A model generated the notes under the pieces. It was not told the origin of the DNA. It ran no database searches and worked only from the letters and a program-made list of their open reading frames with translations. Positions 8,895 through 30,994 of a stretch of 31,477 nucleotides of DNA are shown here, piece after piece (within the stretch, counting starts at the first letter, position 1; each line of letters starts with the position of its first letter). The DNA is taken from positions 1 through 31,477 of IMG/VR virus record IMGVR_UViG_3300033273_000114, one strand, 5' to 3'. Source of the DNA: a virus. Both the position numbers and the translations under genes were made by a program.

Positions 8895-11149
8895 TGTACT
8901 ATCTCGTTTGAAAATATATTTAACAACTCTATTTCAGACTCTCCAGTCATTAGGTTTGTTGTTATTGAATTAATCCTAAAAATCTTATCTTGTATTTTTA
9001 CTTGGTCATTAAGTCTATAATTAACTACAATATTTGTAGGTAATAATGCTCTAATCTTAAACATTCTCTTGAGTGGGTTGAATACACTTTCCACATAAGA
9101 CTTGTAAAATACATTATATAGAGAATTACTGTCAGCCCCATAGTTAACCGATTGCCATTCATTAACCTCTTGGTCAAAATTCAAAGAATATGAAGGTGCG
9201 GTTGTGGTATTACCGGTTTCATTACTATTTGAGGGTCTCCAGTAACTTGTTAGTCCTGTAGGTGGCGAAGTAGATATCCAATTTATCTTACCTCCTCTAC
9301 CTGAGTTAGCATTACTCGCTTCTGGCAAATCAGTTTCTCTTATAGCATAGAATAGTAAAGGAGCTATCATCATTGTGTCGTAATCTCCCGTATTTTCACT
9401 AATATTAGCATCAAATTCACCACCGGCACAATATCCCCACTGAATTAAGGTGCTCGTAGTTGCATTTGGACCTAGATTAACACCTAAATCAACTAGTCTT
9501 TCATATTTCATATGCGAGAATGGTAATGATATTTCATATTTATTACCTCTATCGATATCGGGGAAGTTTCTTCTTACGTTAAATTCAGAATCACCAAACA
9601 CTTCATTAAATTCCTCAAAGTGATGCTCCATAAGAACAGTATTCGTCTCTTGATATTTAAACTCTATATCCGTAAATGGTAGCACTGAGTTTACCGTATG
9701 CTGAGTTACGTCAAAATACTTATCTAAATCTATAAGGCCGCCCAGATTATTATTTACGGCATCAGCATAATAATTATCTAAAGTATCTATATATACCTTG
9801 CCGTATTCAGGGTCTCTTCTATCATCTATAAAATATGCCGTTAGATTGAACATTTTAAACAGACCGGTTAGAAAGTCTATAACTTTCATTTTAGGGAATC
9901 GGTCTAATATTATTATCTCACTAGTGGTGGTTTGTCCTGCCGAGCCGGTTGCTGTATAATTGTAAGTTGTTTGTTGACCAGAGATAGAACTTGTAAAAGT
10001 AATATCTAAATCCGCAGCAGTTATTGTAAATTCACTCTCTGATTGTATTTCAATCTCTATTGTAATGTCCCCCTTGTTATAATCGGAATCGTTTAAATCA
10101 AAATCAAAAACAGAATCACCTAACCCACTCTCCACTCTTTCATTTCCTCTAGTCTTGTCTCTAAATACAACCTTATATGGAACACCTTGATTAGATACTG
10201 TCAAGTCTAGCGATAAGTTGTGGTAGCCAAATACGCTACTTAAACTAATATCACTGCCATCAAATTCAGCACTTGCTAAAGGAGTTCCTGTGGTTGTATA
10301 GCCAGTTAATTTGTGTGAGAATAGATATCCTTCGCCATCATCCAAGTCGTTAAATTCACCTTTCTTGCTATTAACCCAAAGATATAGATTATCGAATGCA
10401 TCAGATCCAAAAAAGTCTCTAGTGAATTCAAGATTGTATTGATTCTCTATAGCTTCAATAATATGAATCGATCTTATGGCGGGTTTTAAATCAGTGTATT
10501 CTAATCCTCTTGTTGTATCTCCGTTAGGGGTATTTGGAGTCCCAACAATTTCGTCGTGATATAAATTACCGGATGAATTATAAAAATCAACAGGAACTGG
10601 ATCGTCAGAATTAAAGAACAATCTTTTTTTAGACGTTATTAATGGGTATATAATTGAGTTGGTTTGACTGTTTAAATTTAGTCCATTAGTAAATCCATCT
10701 CTAACATTAGCCTCGCTGTATTCGTGATCATAATTACTCAGATAAGTTAAGTCTGTCAATTCATCATCTCCAATCAAATCCCTTAATGAAACCGTATTCC
10801 CATAAAATATAATCTCATAAGAAAAGGCTTTGTTATTCTTCATATTTACACTGTTTAGGTATATTTTACCCTCCCTAAACGGTGTACTATTTATATGTAA
10901 TATTGCTTTCCTCTTTTTCCTAGAATCAAAAGCATTCCCAGTGATATTGTAGTTATAGAAATGTCTAAATATCTTGTTGTTTGTGTCTGATGCAGGTACT
11001 GAAAATGTCTGAGAATAGTCAGTGAATACTTTGCCGATATCTCTAATGTCCTGTATAGATGAAGTTAGTTGTACTGTTTCATCATCAAACAAGTCTACAA
11101 GTGGATAGTTACCATCATTATCCTCAATATACAACTGAAGTTTCTGCAT
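8891..11149 (-). CDS. Tail tip / baseplate protein (752 aa)
   Basis: A 752-residue protein rich in beta strands. Its N-terminal 150 residues ('FTDYSQTFSVPASDTNNKIF', 'HINSTPFREGKIYLNSVN', 'YEIIFYGNTVSLRDLIGDDEL') are a pattern I know from tail proteins next to tape measure genes in flavobacterial phages. The middle is Thr/Asp-rich and the C-terminus has another compact domain ending 'MTGESEIELLNIFSNEIV'. Such proteins form the tail hub or tip that docks the receptor-binding parts. It shares one base with the 357-residue gene before it. No enzymatic motif seen. Confidence 0.65.
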   Translation of the reverse strand: MQKLQLYIEDNDGNYPLVDLFDDETVQLTSSIQDIRDIGKVFTDYSQTFSVPASDTNNKIFRHFYNYNITGNAFDSRKKRKAILHINSTPFREGKIYLNSVNMKNNKAFSYEIIFYGNTVSLRDLIGDDELTDLTYLSNYDHEYSEANVRDGFTNGLNLNSQTNSIIYPLITSKKRLFFNSDDPVPVDFYNSSGNLYHDEIVGTPNTPNGDTTRGLEYTDLKPAIRSIHIIEAIENQYNLEFTRDFFGSDAFDNLYLWVNSKKGEFNDLDDGEGYLFSHKLTGYTTTGTPLASAEFDGSDISLSSVFGYHNLSLDLTVSNQGVPYKVVFRDKTRGNERVESGLGDSVFDFDLNDSDYNKGDITIEIEIQSESEFTITAADLDITFTSSISGQQTTYNYTATGSAGQTTTSEIIILDRFPKMKVIDFLTGLFKMFNLTAYFIDDRRDPEYGKVYIDTLDNYYADAVNNNLGGLIDLDKYFDVTQHTVNSVLPFTDIEFKYQETNTVLMEHHFEEFNEVFGDSEFNVRRNFPDIDRGNKYEISLPFSHMKYERLVDLGVNLGPNATTSTLIQWGYCAGGEFDANISENTGDYDTMMIAPLLFYAIRETDLPEASNANSGRGGKINWISTSPPTGLTSYWRPSNSNETGNTTTAPSYSLNFDQEVNEWQSVNYGADSNSLYNVFYKSYVESVFNPLKRMFKIRALLPTNIVVNYRLNDQVKIQDKIFRINSITTNLMTGESEIELLNIFSNEIVQ

Positions 11150-15938: not shown

Positions 15939-15976
15939 ACCTATATAACTAAACAACAACTGTTTTGTACTAGAAT

Positions 15977-15984
15977 CAAAAATA
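15977..15984 (-). promoter_or_regulatory. Candidate promoter -7 element for the structural genes
   Basis: On the minus strand the bases read TATTTTTG, matching the Bacteroidota -7 consensus TAnnTTTG. The spaced -33 TTTG is poor (ACTG at about 16003-16006). A start near 15970 would leave a leader of about 30 bases before the ATG at 15938. A weak -33 would fit a late promoter that needs the phage sigma-like factor or another activator. Confidence 0.4.
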
Positions 15985-16024
15985 AAACACTTTGAAAATA
16001 ATCAGTTATATATCTAGATAATCA

Positions 16025-16049
16025 ATAGGGGCTCCTACAGAGACCCCTA
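16025..16049. other. Stable inverted repeat in the intergenic region
   Basis: TAGGGGCTC and GAG-A-CCCCTA pair over nine positions around a five-base loop with one bulged A. There is no U run on either strand, so it is not a standard terminator. It lies about 50 bases upstream of the candidate structural-gene promoter, where it could be a protein-binding site or an RNA end for the convergent plus-strand unit. Confidence 0.5.
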
Positions 16050-16126
16050 AACTATTAACCAGACCTTAGATTATCATAAAACTTTTAGTCAGAGAAGGGT
16101 AAATACATTCTTTTTTCAAATCATCC

Positions 16127-16157
16127 TTTTTATTTCCAATCTACTTTATTATATTTG
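16127..16157 (+). promoter_or_regulatory. Plus-strand Bacteroidota promoter (TTTT-N19-TATATTTG)
   Basis: TTTT at 16127-16130 and TATATTTG at 16150-16157 are spaced by exactly 19 bases, one base from the host primary sigma consensus. It points rightward, against every protein gene. Transcription would start near 16162-16165, at a perfect inverted repeat. Confidence 0.65.
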
Positions 16158-16160
16158 TAA

Positions 16161-16240
16161 TAACAATGTCTGTTTCATTGTTAAATAGTTTTATGTTATT
16201 TGTTCAAGCCTCCTGTTTTAGCTCTTTCAGGGGGCTTTTT
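16161..16240 (+). ncRNA. Candidate plus-strand small RNA of about 75-80 nt
   Basis: Downstream of the rightward promoter lies a perfect 8-bp hairpin (TAACAATG, seven-base loop, CATTGTTA; 16161-16183), a 22-base AT-rich linker, then a terminator hairpin ending in U5 at 16240. Only a 31-codon frame (16166-16261) fits inside, and it reads through the terminator, so a non-coding RNA is more likely. Because the first hairpin overlaps the expected start site it may instead be an operator in the DNA. It is not antisense to any gene in the window. I do not recognise an RNA family; the flavo-1 class is one to compare. Confidence 0.5.
16206..16240 (+). terminator. Rho-independent terminator on the plus strand
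   Basis: AAGCCUCCUG (16206-16215) pairs with CAGGGGGCUU (16228-16237) over ten positions including one G-U, with a 12-base loop, and is followed by UUU. There is no rightward gene upstream, so it must end a short non-coding transcript. Confidence 0.8.
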
Positions 16241-16253
16241 CAATACCCTTTGA

Positions 16254-16351
16254 TTTTTTAAAACCTAATACCTCGACTACCACTATCTTCATTTTACGTT
16301 GAATTTTTAAAACCGCATACCTCACCACCCGATACATTCATTTTACGCCGT
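16254..16351. repeat. Two imperfect 49-bp direct repeats
   Basis: Units 16254-16302 and 16303-16351 share TTTTTAAAACC, then ATACCTC, ACC and TCATTTTACG at the same spacing. They are adjacent and non-coding. The region 15960-16493 as a whole holds no gene; these repeats, the small RNA unit and the hairpins are all I can see in it. Confidence 0.7.
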
Positions 16352-16493
16352 TTTAAGGCATTATCTCGGGCTTAAGCATATAATACCCTCCAGGAGAGGA
16401 GAAAGTCTCTTAGAGGGGCTGAAAATAAGGCGATCGGCACTACCATTCAAAATACTTATATTCTTTTTCAATTCATTAGCAAAATAATAGTAC

Positions 16494-16532
16494 AAAAAAA
16501 CCGCCTCAAATATTTAACTATTTAAAGGCGGT
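16494..16532 (-). terminator. Strong terminator closing the small-protein cassette
   Basis: On the minus strand ACCGCCU...AGGCGGU forms a 7-bp GC-rich stem extended inward by UAUUU/AAAUA, and it is followed by seven U. It lies 28 bases after the last small gene (stop at 16561) and isolates the cassette from the structural genes. Confidence 0.9.
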
Positions 16533-16560
16533 CAAAACAAACAAACGAAAAAAAGTGTCT

Positions 16561-16695
16561 TTATTCTTTATTTAAAATGTTGTCATAATTTTCAAAAGAT
16601 ATATTTTTACTAAAGTTTATTTGGTTAGATAGAAAGTACTTGTTATCTAGTTCAACTAAATAAAAAGGTTGATTAAGTTTTTTAATATACTTCAT
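16561..16695 (-). CDS. Small hypothetical protein, last of the cassette (44 aa)
   Basis: Its ATG overlaps the TGA of the zinc-ribbon gene (ATGA), and its TAA lies just before the cassette terminator. The 44-residue product starts MKYIKKLNQPFYLVELDNKY, is rich in Asn, Lys and aromatic residues and has no membrane segment or Cys. No family recognised. Confidence 0.6.
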   Translation of the reverse strand: MKYIKKLNQPFYLVELDNKYFLSNQINFSKNISFENYDNILNKE

Positions 16696-16829
16696 TCTGT
16701 TTTATTTTTTATTTCGGGTAGTCCGTATTCATTTAAAGCTATACTCATATCTAAATAAAAACCGCAATAGGAGCACAAAAAATTGTCCGGTTCATTTTCT
16801 TTATTACAACAGCTACAAATTTTATTCAT
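16692..16829 (-). CDS. Small zinc-ribbon-like protein (45 aa)
   Basis: A 45-residue protein with CSCC near residues 5-8 and CSYC at 19-22, two knuckles of a compact zinc ribbon, followed by an acidic tail. It overlaps the genes on both sides (eight bases before, four after), which argues for real translation. Small zinc ribbons in phages often bind host proteins or nucleic acid. Function unknown. Confidence 0.65.
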   Translation of the reverse strand: MNKICSCCNKENEPDNFLCSYCGFYLDMSIALNEYGLPEIKNKTE

Positions 16830-16944
16830 TTTCTTTTGTTTTATATATTGATACTATTTGCTCATCTGTTGAATTGTCTATATAATAAGTATGTTTGTCA
16901 ATTGTTATGTATAAACTTTTTTCGGTTCTTATATCTATTTTCAT
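16822..16944 (-). CDS. Small hypothetical protein (40 aa)
   Basis: A 40-residue protein starting MKIDIRTEKSLYITIDKH. It alternates hydrophobic and polar residues like a small beta hairpin sheet, has no Cys and ends in Lys/Glu. It starts one base after the stop of the gene before it and overlaps the zinc-ribbon gene. No family recognised. Confidence 0.55.
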   Translation of the reverse strand: MKIDIRTEKSLYITIDKHTYYIDNSTDEQIVSIYKTKENE

Positions 16945-16945
16945 T

Positions 16946-17071
16946 TTAGTATTTATTTAAGGTTCCAAATTTATTATATCTATTATCCTGGGACAAAAAT
17001 ATTTTTTCTTTATTCCTTTGTTCCTTTTCTCTTAGTTGCTGTATTAATTCTTTGTCTATTATTATATTCAT
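16946..17071 (-). CDS. Small charged helical protein (41 aa)
   Basis: A 41-residue protein. Residues 5-24 are a Lys/Glu/Gln-rich amphipathic helix ('DKELIQQLREKEQRNKEK'), the rest is Asn/Tyr-rich. It starts four bases after the stop of the GP88-like gene and ends one base before the next start. No family recognised. Confidence 0.55.
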   Translation of the reverse strand: MNIIIDKELIQQLREKEQRNKEKIFLSQDNRYNKFGTLNKY

Positions 17072-17075
17072 TTTA

Positions 17076-19253: not shown

Positions 19254-20459
19254 CTATCGTATGACATAACTCCCTTTGTTTGCATTTGCAAGGAAGTATT
19301 GAACTGCATAACGTAGGCTATCCATATGGTGATTCCATTTATCTATTGGCCTTTCATTCCTACTGTGCCATACATAATTATTCAGTTCCTTTATAAGCTC
19401 TAAGGAATCTGGGTCAATAACTAAATCAAAGTCCTGTATCAATGCTATCCCGGTTAGAATACTACCCTGCCTCTTTATTGCAGGTTTTACATTACAATAT
19501 ACTTTGAGCTCCTGGAGCAACCTAGGCTCTGCTGAGTCACAGACAATAAGTTCATCCTGGGCATATCTCCTATTCATTTCCCCTATCTCTTTCGTAGAAA
19601 GTCCAACTTTGCAGTACATTGTCTTTAACCACATTTTCTTACGATCTTTATCAATAGCTACTTTCAGTAGCACCGTAGGGTCTACAGAAAACCCAAAGTC
19701 TTGCCCATATATATAAGGGGCATATTCGTTGAATGGTCCAATAGTCCAACGGGTGAATACAACACCATCAGCTTTATCTAACCAACCACCGAGTATCTGG
19801 TGATTATATTTATCTGGTCTACGTCTACGAATCTCTTCTATCTGCATAAGGAAGGAGTCGGATAGGTGCTCCATATTATCTTTGAACGTAGTGTGAATAT
19901 AAGTGATATTATCCTTCCAACCGTTATGTCCACCATTAACAGCCTTAGCCGCAAAGAACCTTTGATATATCCAGTGCTCCTTAGTCGTAGGGTTTAATAT
20001 AAGGATAACTCTATTGGGTTTATTCTTAGCCCTTACAGACTGATCTATCTTGTCAAAGTCATCTTCATTAATAAGTTCCTCTGCCTCATCCAATACAAAC
20101 GTTGTAATACCTTGTAGGGACTTCAGAGCAGCCGTTTGATTACCTGCTGAGGTCTTGATACCTTTAAAGATAATAGAGCTCCCTGTGGACATATTTAGTA
20201 TCTCATCCTTAGTTATTCTGAAGTGCTCAGAGATACCATACAACTCTATCTTTTCTATAAACTCTGGAATAATAGACGTAGAGGCTGAAGACATAGTGTA
20301 ACGAGTGAACAGTATCTTATGACCTTGTTCCATTGTCAAGAGGGCTAGGAATGCCCCTACAGCAAAAGATTTACCACTACCTCTACCACCGGTTACAACA
20401 AAGTATCGGCTATCATTACCTAGTGCTTGATATTTAGGGTTTAGTTGTGGTACTGACAT
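19254..20459 (-). CDS. terL: Terminase large subunit (PBSX/phage type)
   Basis: A complete 401-residue packaging motor. ATPase part: Walker A GGRGSGKS (24-31), Walker B 'TFVLDEAEE' (120-128, Asp124/Glu125), coupling motif 'ILILNPT' (about 151-157). Nuclease part: 'YGQDFGFSVDPT' (Asp254), 'ELIVCDSAEPR' (Asp308), 'NHHMDSLRYAVQY' (Asp380), the RNase H-like acidic triad. It cuts concatemers and drives DNA into the prohead through the portal. It overlaps a 43-residue gene before it and is followed directly by the HNH gene. Confidence 0.95.
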   Translation of the reverse strand: MSVPQLNPKYQALGNDSRYFVVTGGRGSGKSFAVGAFLALLTMEQGHKILFTRYTMSSASTSIIPEFIEKIELYGISEHFRITKDEILNMSTGSSIIFKGIKTSAGNQTAALKSLQGITTFVLDEAEELINEDDFDKIDQSVRAKNKPNRVILILNPTTKEHWIYQRFFAAKAVNGGHNGWKDNITYIHTTFKDNMEHLSDSFLMQIEEIRRRRPDKYNHQILGGWLDKADGVVFTRWTIGPFNEYAPYIYGQDFGFSVDPTVLLKVAIDKDRKKMWLKTMYCKVGLSTKEIGEMNRRYAQDELIVCDSAEPRLLQELKVYCNVKPAIKRQGSILTGIALIQDFDLVIDPDSLELIKELNNYVWHSRNERPIDKWNHHMDSLRYAVQYFLANANKGSYVIR

Positions 20460-29883: not shown

Positions 29884-30249
29884 TTACGTTATAAACCAAA
29901 TCATATCCGGTTTTAAATCATCATTATCAACGTGAATGTATTTATGGTGCAGTCCAAATCTCCTAAATCCTACCATAGACAGTGCCTCAACGATTTTAAG
30001 ACGTTTCTTGGCATTTACACATTCTATATGTGCTGCCCTACCTATTAAGTGAGAAGATGTCGTAGAAGCCTTGTAATGGACTGTATTATGGAAAGAACTA
30101 ACATACCCACTAAGTATCTTAAATCTAATACCTGCAATATCTCTAGCTTCATCTAGCATAGCAATAAATTCCCTATCCATATATTTATATCCAGAACCTG
30201 GTAATCCTGGACAATCAAATTCCTCAAAACGAAAGTATTTATATTCCAT
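29884..30249 (-). CDS. M15-type peptidase paralogue with altered catalytic residues
   Basis: A 121-residue protein with the full M15A layout: N-terminal 'YKYFRFEEFDCP' (3-14), 'FKILSGYVSSFHN' (43-55), 'SSHLIGRAAHIE' (65-76) and 'KYIHVDND' (103-110). The zinc motif HxxGxAxD has His67 but His74 where Asp is expected, and the Arg normally following SGY is Val50; the final HxD (His106/Asp108) is intact. Zinc binding could survive with three His, but catalysis may be changed or lost. It is clearly related to the peptidase at the right edge (shared 'SSHLIG' and 'GFRR' blocks). Confidence 0.8.
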   Translation of the reverse strand: MEYKYFRFEEFDCPGLPGSGYKYMDREFIAMLDEARDIAGIRFKILSGYVSSFHNTVHYKASTTSSHLIGRAAHIECVNAKKRLKIVEALSMVGFRRFGLHHKYIHVDNDDLKPDMIWFIT

Positions 30250-30280
30250 TTTGTGAAATTAACCAAAAAATATATATTTG
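30250..30280 (+). promoter_or_regulatory. Consensus plus-strand promoter (TTTG-N19-TATATTTG)
   Basis: TTTG at 30250-30253, exactly 19 bases, TATATTTG at 30273-30280: a full match to the Bacteroidota primary-sigma consensus, pointing rightward against all protein genes. The first base abuts the start codon of the minus-strand M15-like gene. Confidence 0.75.
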
Positions 30281-30285
30281 CAAAA

Positions 30286-30380
30286 CGGTAGCAGTAAATC
30301 TACCTTAAAAATTACCAAACTTCTATAGGGATATAGTTGGATCAGATACTTTGAAATTTTGTTTTTCTAGGGGGCTTTTT
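30286..30380 (+). ncRNA. Candidate plus-strand RNA of about 95 nt
   Basis: Seven bases after the -7 element starts a hairpin GGTAG/CTACC (30287-30304), followed by CTATA-GGGA-TATAG, a GNRA-type hairpin, and a U-rich end at AGGGGGCTTTTTC (about 30369-30381). The same last 13 bases end the plus-strand unit at 16240. No open frame of note fits. There is no clear stem for the terminator here, so the 3' end is uncertain; transcription could run on into the pyrimidine tract. Confidence 0.4.
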
Positions 30381-30430
30381 CTTTTCTTTCTTTCTTTTTT
30401 TAACCCTTTTTTCTTTCTTTCTTTTCTTTT
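30376..30430. repeat. Homopyrimidine mirror repeat (H-DNA type)
   Basis: The plus strand is all C/T in two arms (30376-30401 and 30407-30430) around AACCC. The left arm read backward equals the right arm (T6-7, C, TTT, C, TTT, C, TTTT, C, TTTT) but for one T. Such mirror symmetry is the requirement for an intramolecular triplex. The 30250-30440 interval has no minus-strand gene. Confidence 0.85.
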
Positions 30431-30440
30431 GAAGTTGTAT

Positions 30441-30575
30441 TTAACGACCTTGTCCTCTATACTTCTTCTTATAGTTCTTAGAAGACTTTAGATGACTTGT
30501 TTTAGACTTACTGTGTACCCCAGGTCGTTTAACCTTAGAACCGCCTTTATAATTACTTATTTGAAGTTTAGCCAT
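30441..30575 (-). CDS. Small basic protein (44 aa)
   Basis: ATG at 30575 shares a base with the holin TAA (TAATG). The 44-residue product is highly basic (MAKLQISNYKGGSKVKRPG..., ending YKKKYRGQGR) with about 14 Lys/Arg. I recall near-identical small proteins in flavobacterial phages near lysis or structural genes, with no role assigned. It may bind DNA, membranes or cell-wall polymers. Confidence 0.7.
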   Translation of the reverse strand: MAKLQISNYKGGSKVKRPGVHSKSKTSHLKSSKNYKKKYRGQGR

Positions 30576-30994
30576 TACTTATTGAATTTAACACCAATCT
30601 TATCTGCGGTTCTAGCACCAAAATATCCACATAATACCCAGGTTAATAAACCTGAAGTATCTGTAGTATCTAAACCTAAATACCAACCAATAATATATGC
30701 TATAGTTAATACGGCTAAAGTAAGCGGTCTAACATTCCTTGCTAACCAACTTTGTGAATGACTGTCTGCAACCCATCTACGAGTTACTCCATCTATCTCA
30801 GCCCTCTCTAATTCAAGTTTCTTCAGTGCAACTTGTTTATCCTCCTCTGACATTGGAGACCCACCTATAATGGCTTGTATAACGTTACCCGCTAAACTAT
30901 CCCCTGCTACAGCTCCTACAACGTCTGGTATCTTCTCTAAAAGGAATTTACCTACTTGGGTATCTTTAAATTTCTTCTTAGGGGTTGTTGACAT
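30575..30994 (-). CDS. Holin (GTA_holin_3TM-like)
   Basis: A 139-residue protein: N-terminal Gly/Ala-rich hydrophobic helix (about 22-44), charged helix (50-75), 'SWLARNVRPLTLAV' (82-95), two clear membrane segments (88-107 and 114-128) and a basic end. The 'RNVRPL' motif before the first segment is the sign of the GTA_holin_3TM family. It would form the pore that frees the peptidase. It lies between the lipoprotein gene (17-base overlap) and the 44-residue basic gene. Confidence 0.75.
   Translation of the reverse strand: MSTTPKKKFKDTQVGKFLLEKIPDVVGAVAGDSLAGNVIQAIIGGSPMSEEDKQVALKKLELERAEIDGVTRRWVADSHSQSWLARNVRPLTLAVLTIAYIIGWYLGLDTTDTSGLLTWVLCGYFGARTADKIGVKFNK

Follow-up and report, generated by a model that had tools for sequence, protein, structure and literature searches.

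It has long been asked whether selection has given H-DNA a biological role, because mirror repeats are commonly regarded as unstable by-products. Copying can create and maintain direct and inverted repeats, but not mirror repeats. MALAT1/ENE-type triple helices are formed by U-rich motifs and contain two antiparallel near-mirror strands. A homopurine-homopyrimidine mirror repeat is the H-DNA motif (PMC9171763, PMC4666352), and an intrastrand-triplex motif of E. coli is reported as not found in phages (PMC4666352). At the human mitochondrial origin (LSP/CSBII), transcripts are about 120 nt long and terminate at a G-rich block, and a G-rich stretch is described as essential in ColE1 RNA II (PMC6317783). 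In Bacteroidota, small RNAs transcribed by sigma-A have just before the RNA a TAnnTTTG box, the flavobacterial sigma-A -7 consensus (PMC9723704).

The locus that we analyzed belongs to a 31,477-base virus record from IMG/VR (35% G+C, nearly all genes leftward), the whole of which we call the window. What a first-pass annotation had marked there as a promoter-hairpin unit appears from comparison with relatives to be the 5' part of a single-copy phage element of about 180 bp. The element resembles MALAT1/ENE triple helices in its two antiparallel U-rich near-mirror strands, but its RNA has no visible purine strand, its arms are 17-28 nt long and it is carried by a phage. With H-DNA it shares a pyrimidine mirror repeat with a short loop (PMC9171763, PMC4666352), whereas here paired changes across many phages keep the symmetry, and each genome has a single such repeat in a constant position behind a structured RNA. 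With ColE1 RNA II and the mitochondrial LSP/CSBII region it shares a promoter, an RNA and a G-rich non-template stretch some 85-120 nt on (PMC6317783), but it adds a pseudoknot and, after the G-run, a triplex-forming mirror, and its G-run is shorter and not universal; the likeness is one of layout, not of demonstrated sequence kinship, and an origin role for the element is putative. Like the sigma-A small RNAs of Bacteroidota it has a TAnnTTTG box just before the RNA (PMC9723704), but it has no intrinsic terminator, carries a pseudoknot and a mirror tail, and is not in Rfam.

Layout and gene neighborhood of the element

The annotation had described a rightward promoter with an exact 19-base spacer, two hairpins and a closing 13-mer shared with another unit of the window (unit 1), and each of these is present (Table 1). 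The 13-mer, AGGGGGCTTTTTC, lies at 30369-30381 and at 16229-16241 and nowhere else in the window. Beyond what had been annotated, we find a pseudoknot and, directly downstream, a perfect mirror repeat with 24-nt arms and a 6-nt loop, that is, a homopyrimidine mirror of the H-DNA type, into which the 13-mer runs (TTTTCTTTTCTTTCTTTCTTTTTT-TAACCC-TTTTTTCTTTCTTTCTTTTCTTTT). The arrangement TTTG-N19-TAnnTTTG occurs once on the plus strand of the window against 0.145 expected per strand in order-1 simulations, and the window has both boxes of a Bacteroidota sigma-A promoter, TAnnTTTG with an upstream TTG.

Table 1. Positions of the element's parts, its neighbors and unit 1 in the window
Feature	Position	Strand	Remarks
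Unit 1, small-RNA-like with intrinsic terminator	16150-16241	+	shares only TATATTTG and the 13-mer with the element
terL	19254-20459		not adjacent to the element in the window
M15-type peptidase/endolysin	29884-30249	-	one flank of the element
-33-type box TTTG	30250-30253	+	starts right next to the ATG of the leftward endolysin gene
-7 box TATATTTG, Bacteroidota sigma-A type TAnnTTTG	30273-30280	+	in 55 of 56 copies
P1 hairpin GGTAG/CTACC	30287-30304	+	outer pair CG/AU/GC/UA across 42 sequences
Pseudoknot, GTAA (30294-30297) with TTAC (30312-30315)	30294-30315	+	paired changes
P2 hairpin CTATA-GGGA-TATAG	30323-30336	+	flanked by conserved ACTT and TTGGATCAG (30337-30345)
Conserved TTTTGTTTTTCT and G-run GGGGG (30370-30374)	30357-30374	+	alignments A1-A3
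Perfect homopyrimidine mirror repeat, H-DNA motif	30377-30430	+	arms 30377-30400 and 30407-30430; loop TAACCC 30401-30406
Small basic ORF, 44 aa, ends ...NYKKKYRGQGR	30441-30575	-	usual neighbor in the window's lineage
Holin	30575-30994	-	adjoins the basic ORF

In the window, the element sits between the holin and basic ORF on one side and the endolysin on the other, all leftward, and the closest annotated phage by the window's terminase is Nonlabens phage P12024S (52.6% identity). Throughout the window's lineage it lies between lysis genes and early genes. In a co-oriented sublineage, amidase, holin and basic ORF precede it and NinG follows, and in one member (L107) a primase/helicase-like gene lies about 2 kb further on. 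The annotation's picture of a plus-strand unit that opposes its flanking genes at a module boundary was borne out in the window, but its suggestion of control over opposing transcription does not describe a conserved role. Compared across relatives, the element is intergenic with an orientation independent of gene direction: it is co-oriented with its neighbors in L027, L089, L091, L094, L099, L105, L107, L109, L119 and L135 and in most second-lineage copies. Antisense control of lysis genes as a conserved role is ruled out by the same variation.

Several features of the surroundings can be recorded here. In the window's lineage, most copies have beside them a short basic ORF ending RGQGR/K, which also occurs in element-free relatives (L073-L086). 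Upstream of the endolysin, L062 and L063 have the same RNA part with different mirror arms and different downstream genes, a contrast by which the element appears to mark a module joint. Contigs end about 150 nt or less from the element in L095, L104, L158, L165, L183, L188 and L160/L194, and one 29-kb contig carries it at either end; the contig ends near it are most simply read as assembly breaks. In L050-L065, words like TATACTATGTTTA occur once or twice just past the mirror and are possible binding sites.

Conservation in relatives

The pattern search in other phages that the annotation had proposed was run and gave 46 viral-contig stretches, in three length classes: 107-110 nt for this element, 92-98 nt for unit 1 and 81-86 nt for a further group that has a true terminator. 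A search based on the endolysin, and blind to the element, gave 39 loci. Judged by eye, the unit and its TAnnTTTG stand upstream of the endolysin in 25 of these and are absent from 12, while the other 2 loci are truncated. With two further pattern scans the total came to 154 instances on viral contigs, or 108 distinct copies, from viruses whose hosts are marine and freshwater bacteria. The scan patterns were TATATTTG and the 13-mer; GTTGGANCAG and the tract; and the T-tract, G-run and left arm. Because copies were picked by those letters, their invariance is partly imposed; the right arm and the P1 and pseudoknot stems lie outside all patterns, and of P2 only the last G before TTGGA falls within one, that of the GTTGGANCAG scan.

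The copies form three groups: the window's lineage, the sublineage co-oriented with amidase, holin, basic ORF and NinG, and a second, Flavobacterium-phage-like lineage. In the last of these, L154 has a terminase closest to that of Flavobacterium phage 11b (47.2%) and carries a sigma factor two genes upstream. R1, a model built from the window's lineage, finds the co-oriented sublineage at E 1e-4 to 1e-9 and matches the second lineage only at E 0.2-0.8, so homology there rests on the shared plan of T-tract, G-run and mirror and of ACTT-stem-TTGG, a core of which the third pattern scan (T-tract, G-run, left arm) required part.

Conservation of the promoter in relatives had been named beforehand as a test of the unit, and the -7 box is conserved in the window's lineage. 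Of the 56 copies from that lineage and the co-oriented sublineage with enough upstream sequence, 55 have TAnnTTTG 3-7 nt upstream of P1, against a chance of about 0.012 per 26-nt stretch. It is still present in 41 of 42 when copies matching the TATATTTG search pattern are set aside, and its variants among these copies include TACATTTG, TATCTTTG, TACTTTTG and TATGTTTG. The -33 region is weakly conserved, with TTG at a spacing of 17-22 in 22 of 56 relatives of the window's lineage, and the TAnnTTTG box is absent from second-lineage copies. In the window we infer an RNA 5' end at about 30287.

The RNA part was compared in three alignments, from which 6 of the 108 copies, with less than 125 nt upstream, were omitted: A1 (42 distinct cores), A2 (44; nine co-oriented rows and L135 are in neither) and A3 (36 second-lineage sequences, without eight TCTCC-type rows, whose register differs). 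Across P1, the pseudoknot and P2, 98.3% of the cells in A1 are paired, against 88.5% in shuffles and at most 52.5% in slid controls. Seven of the 14 pairs changed on both sides (4.1 in shuffles), a number that 0 of 500 shuffles reach, though shuffle counts are not probabilities, since these controls ignore relatedness; the covariation score is 0.282 against 0.103. The second lineage follows the same plan in other letters, with 97.9% paired (87.9% in shuffles, at most 38.9% in slid controls) and five double-change pairs (2.7 in shuffles; 5 of 500 reach five). Further pair types were not above shuffles (174 of 500 in A1, 315 of 500 in A3).

The pseudoknot is paired in 100% of the A1 cells, eight sequences having an A-U to G-C change on both sides. 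Second-lineage copies pair GTC/GAC, GGC/GCC or GAC/GTC instead, with U-A, A-U or G-C as the third pseudoknot pair in A3. P2 has both-side changes at all five pairs in relatives, and the second lineage has a third hairpin, P3, with compensatory variation. Compensatory changes support P1, P2 and the pseudoknot as elements of the predicted RNA. The non-Watson-Crick cells of A1 are 10 G.T and 3 A.C, which favors the plus strand as the RNA, while in A2 the two are about equal (33 and 32) and say nothing on the strand; one sublineage there is out of register. Folded alone, the 98-nt RNA of the window has an unremarkable minimum free energy (z = +0.45). The fold's pseudoknot and its lack of a terminator account for this, and support for the fold comes from comparison. 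That fold contains no strong stem with GGGGGC and no intrinsic terminator; the element's GGGGGC has no matching 5' arm and leads into the mirror repeat.

Other identities were tried and rejected. A conserved peptide through the pyrimidine tract is ruled out by frames that, by eye, differ in L145/L147, L146 and L196, and a tRNA by there being none in the window. Pistol-like ribozymes have a hairpin-plus-pseudoknot order and a second pairing; such a ribozyme is ruled out here, as that second pairing is absent and Rfam gives no match. Rfam release 15 has two sub-gathering matches in the window, both elsewhere than at the element, and 0 matches at E up to 1 across 13 element loci. No copy was found in 84,980 bacterial genomes, where the sole match was a coding false positive, and R1 gave one match in 395 Bacteroidota genomes, a false positive without a mirror; both results come from strict filters and are weak evidence, and a looser pattern was too unspecific for use in the 395 genomes. 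Neither the motif nor a Py/Pu mirror of at least 13 nt occurs in Nonlabens phage P12024S (whole), in 31.0 of the 36.0 kb of Flavobacterium phage 11b or in 41.2 of the 53.7 kb of Cellulophaga phage phi10:1. Nucleotide searches of the phage collection, which like the genome collection is incomplete, gave nothing relevant, and we found no phage H-DNA/pseudoknot element in the open-access literature.

In 107 of 108 copies the arms of the mirror repeat reach 17 nt or more and mismatch at one position at most; a contig end cuts the remaining copy. The repeat comes in 31 arm/loop types with 19 distinct arm pairs. A copy's own arms match over a mean of 20.2 nt, whereas exchanging arms between copies lowers this to 11.8, and none of 5000 permutations attains the observed sum. 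Since picking the best register favors symmetry, we added a reading of T-runs and C-spacing outward from the loop that does not maximize it, excluding 14 of the 108 copies, whose loops are long or interrupted or which meet a contig end. Between the arms, the second and third spacings are alike in 15 of 16 types, and the inner T-runs are correlated (r = 0.80, 94 short-loop copies). Among 44 disjoint closest pairs with differing arms (registers chosen for symmetry, nine too-short copies left out), 43 changed both arms and one only the right arm; in some close pairs the RNA parts differ by only 0-3 edits though the arms differ. The 1.83 Mb of viral loci, counting overlapping ones, contain 136 perfect Py/Pu mirrors whose arms measure 17 nt or more, and all 136 belong to the element; each of 26 records holds one copy of it. 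A C-to-G change recurs at the same right-arm position in several sublineages (e.g. L015, L022, L063), and in some copies this G spoils the symmetry at a single position, which counts against upkeep.

Evolution preserves the mirror symmetry while the arms differ between phages. Such symmetry is required where two antiparallel pyrimidine strands read one purine strand, as in H-DNA or an RNA clamp, and its preservation points to a three-stranded nucleic-acid structure, presumably at one spot per phage genome. RNA helices were established from evolutionary evidence of the same kind as these paired arm changes, which copying leaves unexplained.

Readings of the element

RNA polymerase would start at about 30287 and make the folded RNA. 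As the polymerase crosses the G-run, about 85 nt from this inferred start, and the mirror, the non-template pyrimidine strand could fold back as a third strand into an intramolecular triplex (H-DNA), and the RNA could meanwhile stay paired to the purine template. The R-loop/triplex would keep the DNA strands apart at a single defined site in each genome, where it would most likely serve to prime DNA replication, or to gate it, close to the late/early boundary, as a transcription-primed origin; the nearest alternative use of the same structure would be a polymerase roadblock at that boundary. A single intergenic copy, indifferent to gene direction, with an RNA fold that runs into the mirror without a spacer suggests cis-coupling of transcription and triplex, and the order of promoter, structured RNA and G-run resembles that of R-loop-primed origins, for which reason we rate an R-loop/H-DNA origin or gate first, a roadblock second and a clamp RNA third. 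NinG as a neighbor in the co-oriented sublineage, and the primase/helicase-like gene of L107, speak for a use in replication. We hold this favored reading tentatively, giving it somewhat less than an even chance. That the element forms a new class, with a pseudoknotted RNA hard-wired to a selection-kept DNA triplex as a transcription-primed H-DNA/R-loop replication origin, is possible though doubtful. A promoter about 100 nt before a G-rich non-template stretch is present in the window; in relatives its -7 box is restricted to the window's lineage as described above, and the G-run has at least four Gs in 95 of the 108 copies and only two or three in 13. GC skew makes no switch at the element, where the one-directional genes mask it and leave no information on an origin, and a DnaA-box-like word was found in only 1 of 108 copies of up to 280 nt. 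If an origin or gate is correct, the element may reveal a new way of starting or gating phage replication, and a small phage element with a defined promoter and RNA makes a role for H-DNA directly testable.

Other uses of the same parts are conceivable. Folded RNA and H-DNA might act as a roadblock or insulator that stops RNA polymerases at the late/early boundary, replacing or supplementing a terminator. The element's place between lysis and early genes, or between amidase-holin-basic ORF and NinG in the co-oriented sublineage, would suit this, and intramolecular triplexes are described as impinging on transcription, with (GAA)n blocking it (PMC9171763). However, a strict block in the window would split a lysis cassette whose holin, basic ORF and endolysin all run leftward, the element contains no terminator hairpin, and a pseudoknotted RNA with its own promoter would be superfluous, all of which makes a roadblock rather unlikely. 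The mirror might instead belong to a trans-acting small RNA whose 3' pyrimidine arms clamp a purine-rich RNA or DNA single strand into a triple helix, much as the U-rich motifs of MALAT1 do. Antiparallel pyrimidine arms gripping one purine strand must be mirror images, and the unit has its own promoter and, in the window's lineage, an orientation independent of its neighbors. Yet the window holds no purine target elsewhere beyond weak 3-mismatch matches, and by eye no conserved purine tract lies in the same transcript. Since the mirror's own purine complement is always at hand, H-DNA at the DNA level is favored, and we regard a trans clamp as distinctly unlikely.

A DNA site for recombination or packaging, with the RNA fold secondary, would account for L062 and L063 being alike up to the mirror and then differing as at a module joint, and for the contigs that end close to the element or carry it at both ends. 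These ends, however, scatter on both sides as assembly breaks would, the element is not next to terL in the window, and the compensatory changes in the pseudoknot call for RNA or a single strand, so that such a site seems very unlikely. Least probable is an ordinary low-complexity tract beside a small RNA, with a mirror made by chance or polymerase slippage. The tract is a simple T/C run, but slippage lengthens one run and makes no matching change in the other arm, and with the permutation result, the changes to both arms in nearly all close pairs and the lack of any other such mirror in the 1.83 Mb, this is almost certainly not the explanation.

Unit 1 and look-alikes

The annotation had taken the two units to be built on the same plan, and here it did not hold up: unit 1 lacks a TTG at the -33 spacing and ends in a true terminator. 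It consists of a 5' hairpin and a classical terminator with GGGGGC as the 3' arm (fold z = -5.5), the 13-mer forming the 3' arm and tail of that terminator, and its relatives (L024, L030) keep the hairpin, a U-rich linker and the terminator. The 13-mer common to both units is best read as convergent, and unit 1 is a separate, ordinary-looking small-RNA-like unit. In Nonlabens phage P12024S (L205), at about 10,180-10,260 after a holin-like gene, TATATTTG, a short RNA and a terminator hairpin sit, without a mirror, at the corresponding lysis/early boundary. At 15960-17075 the window has about 1.1 kb of non-coding DNA, with several imperfect repeats, which separates structural genes from the gp88-like gene. 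The 81-86-nt set in other phages (L003, L005, L043 and others) has a plan similar to that of unit 1.
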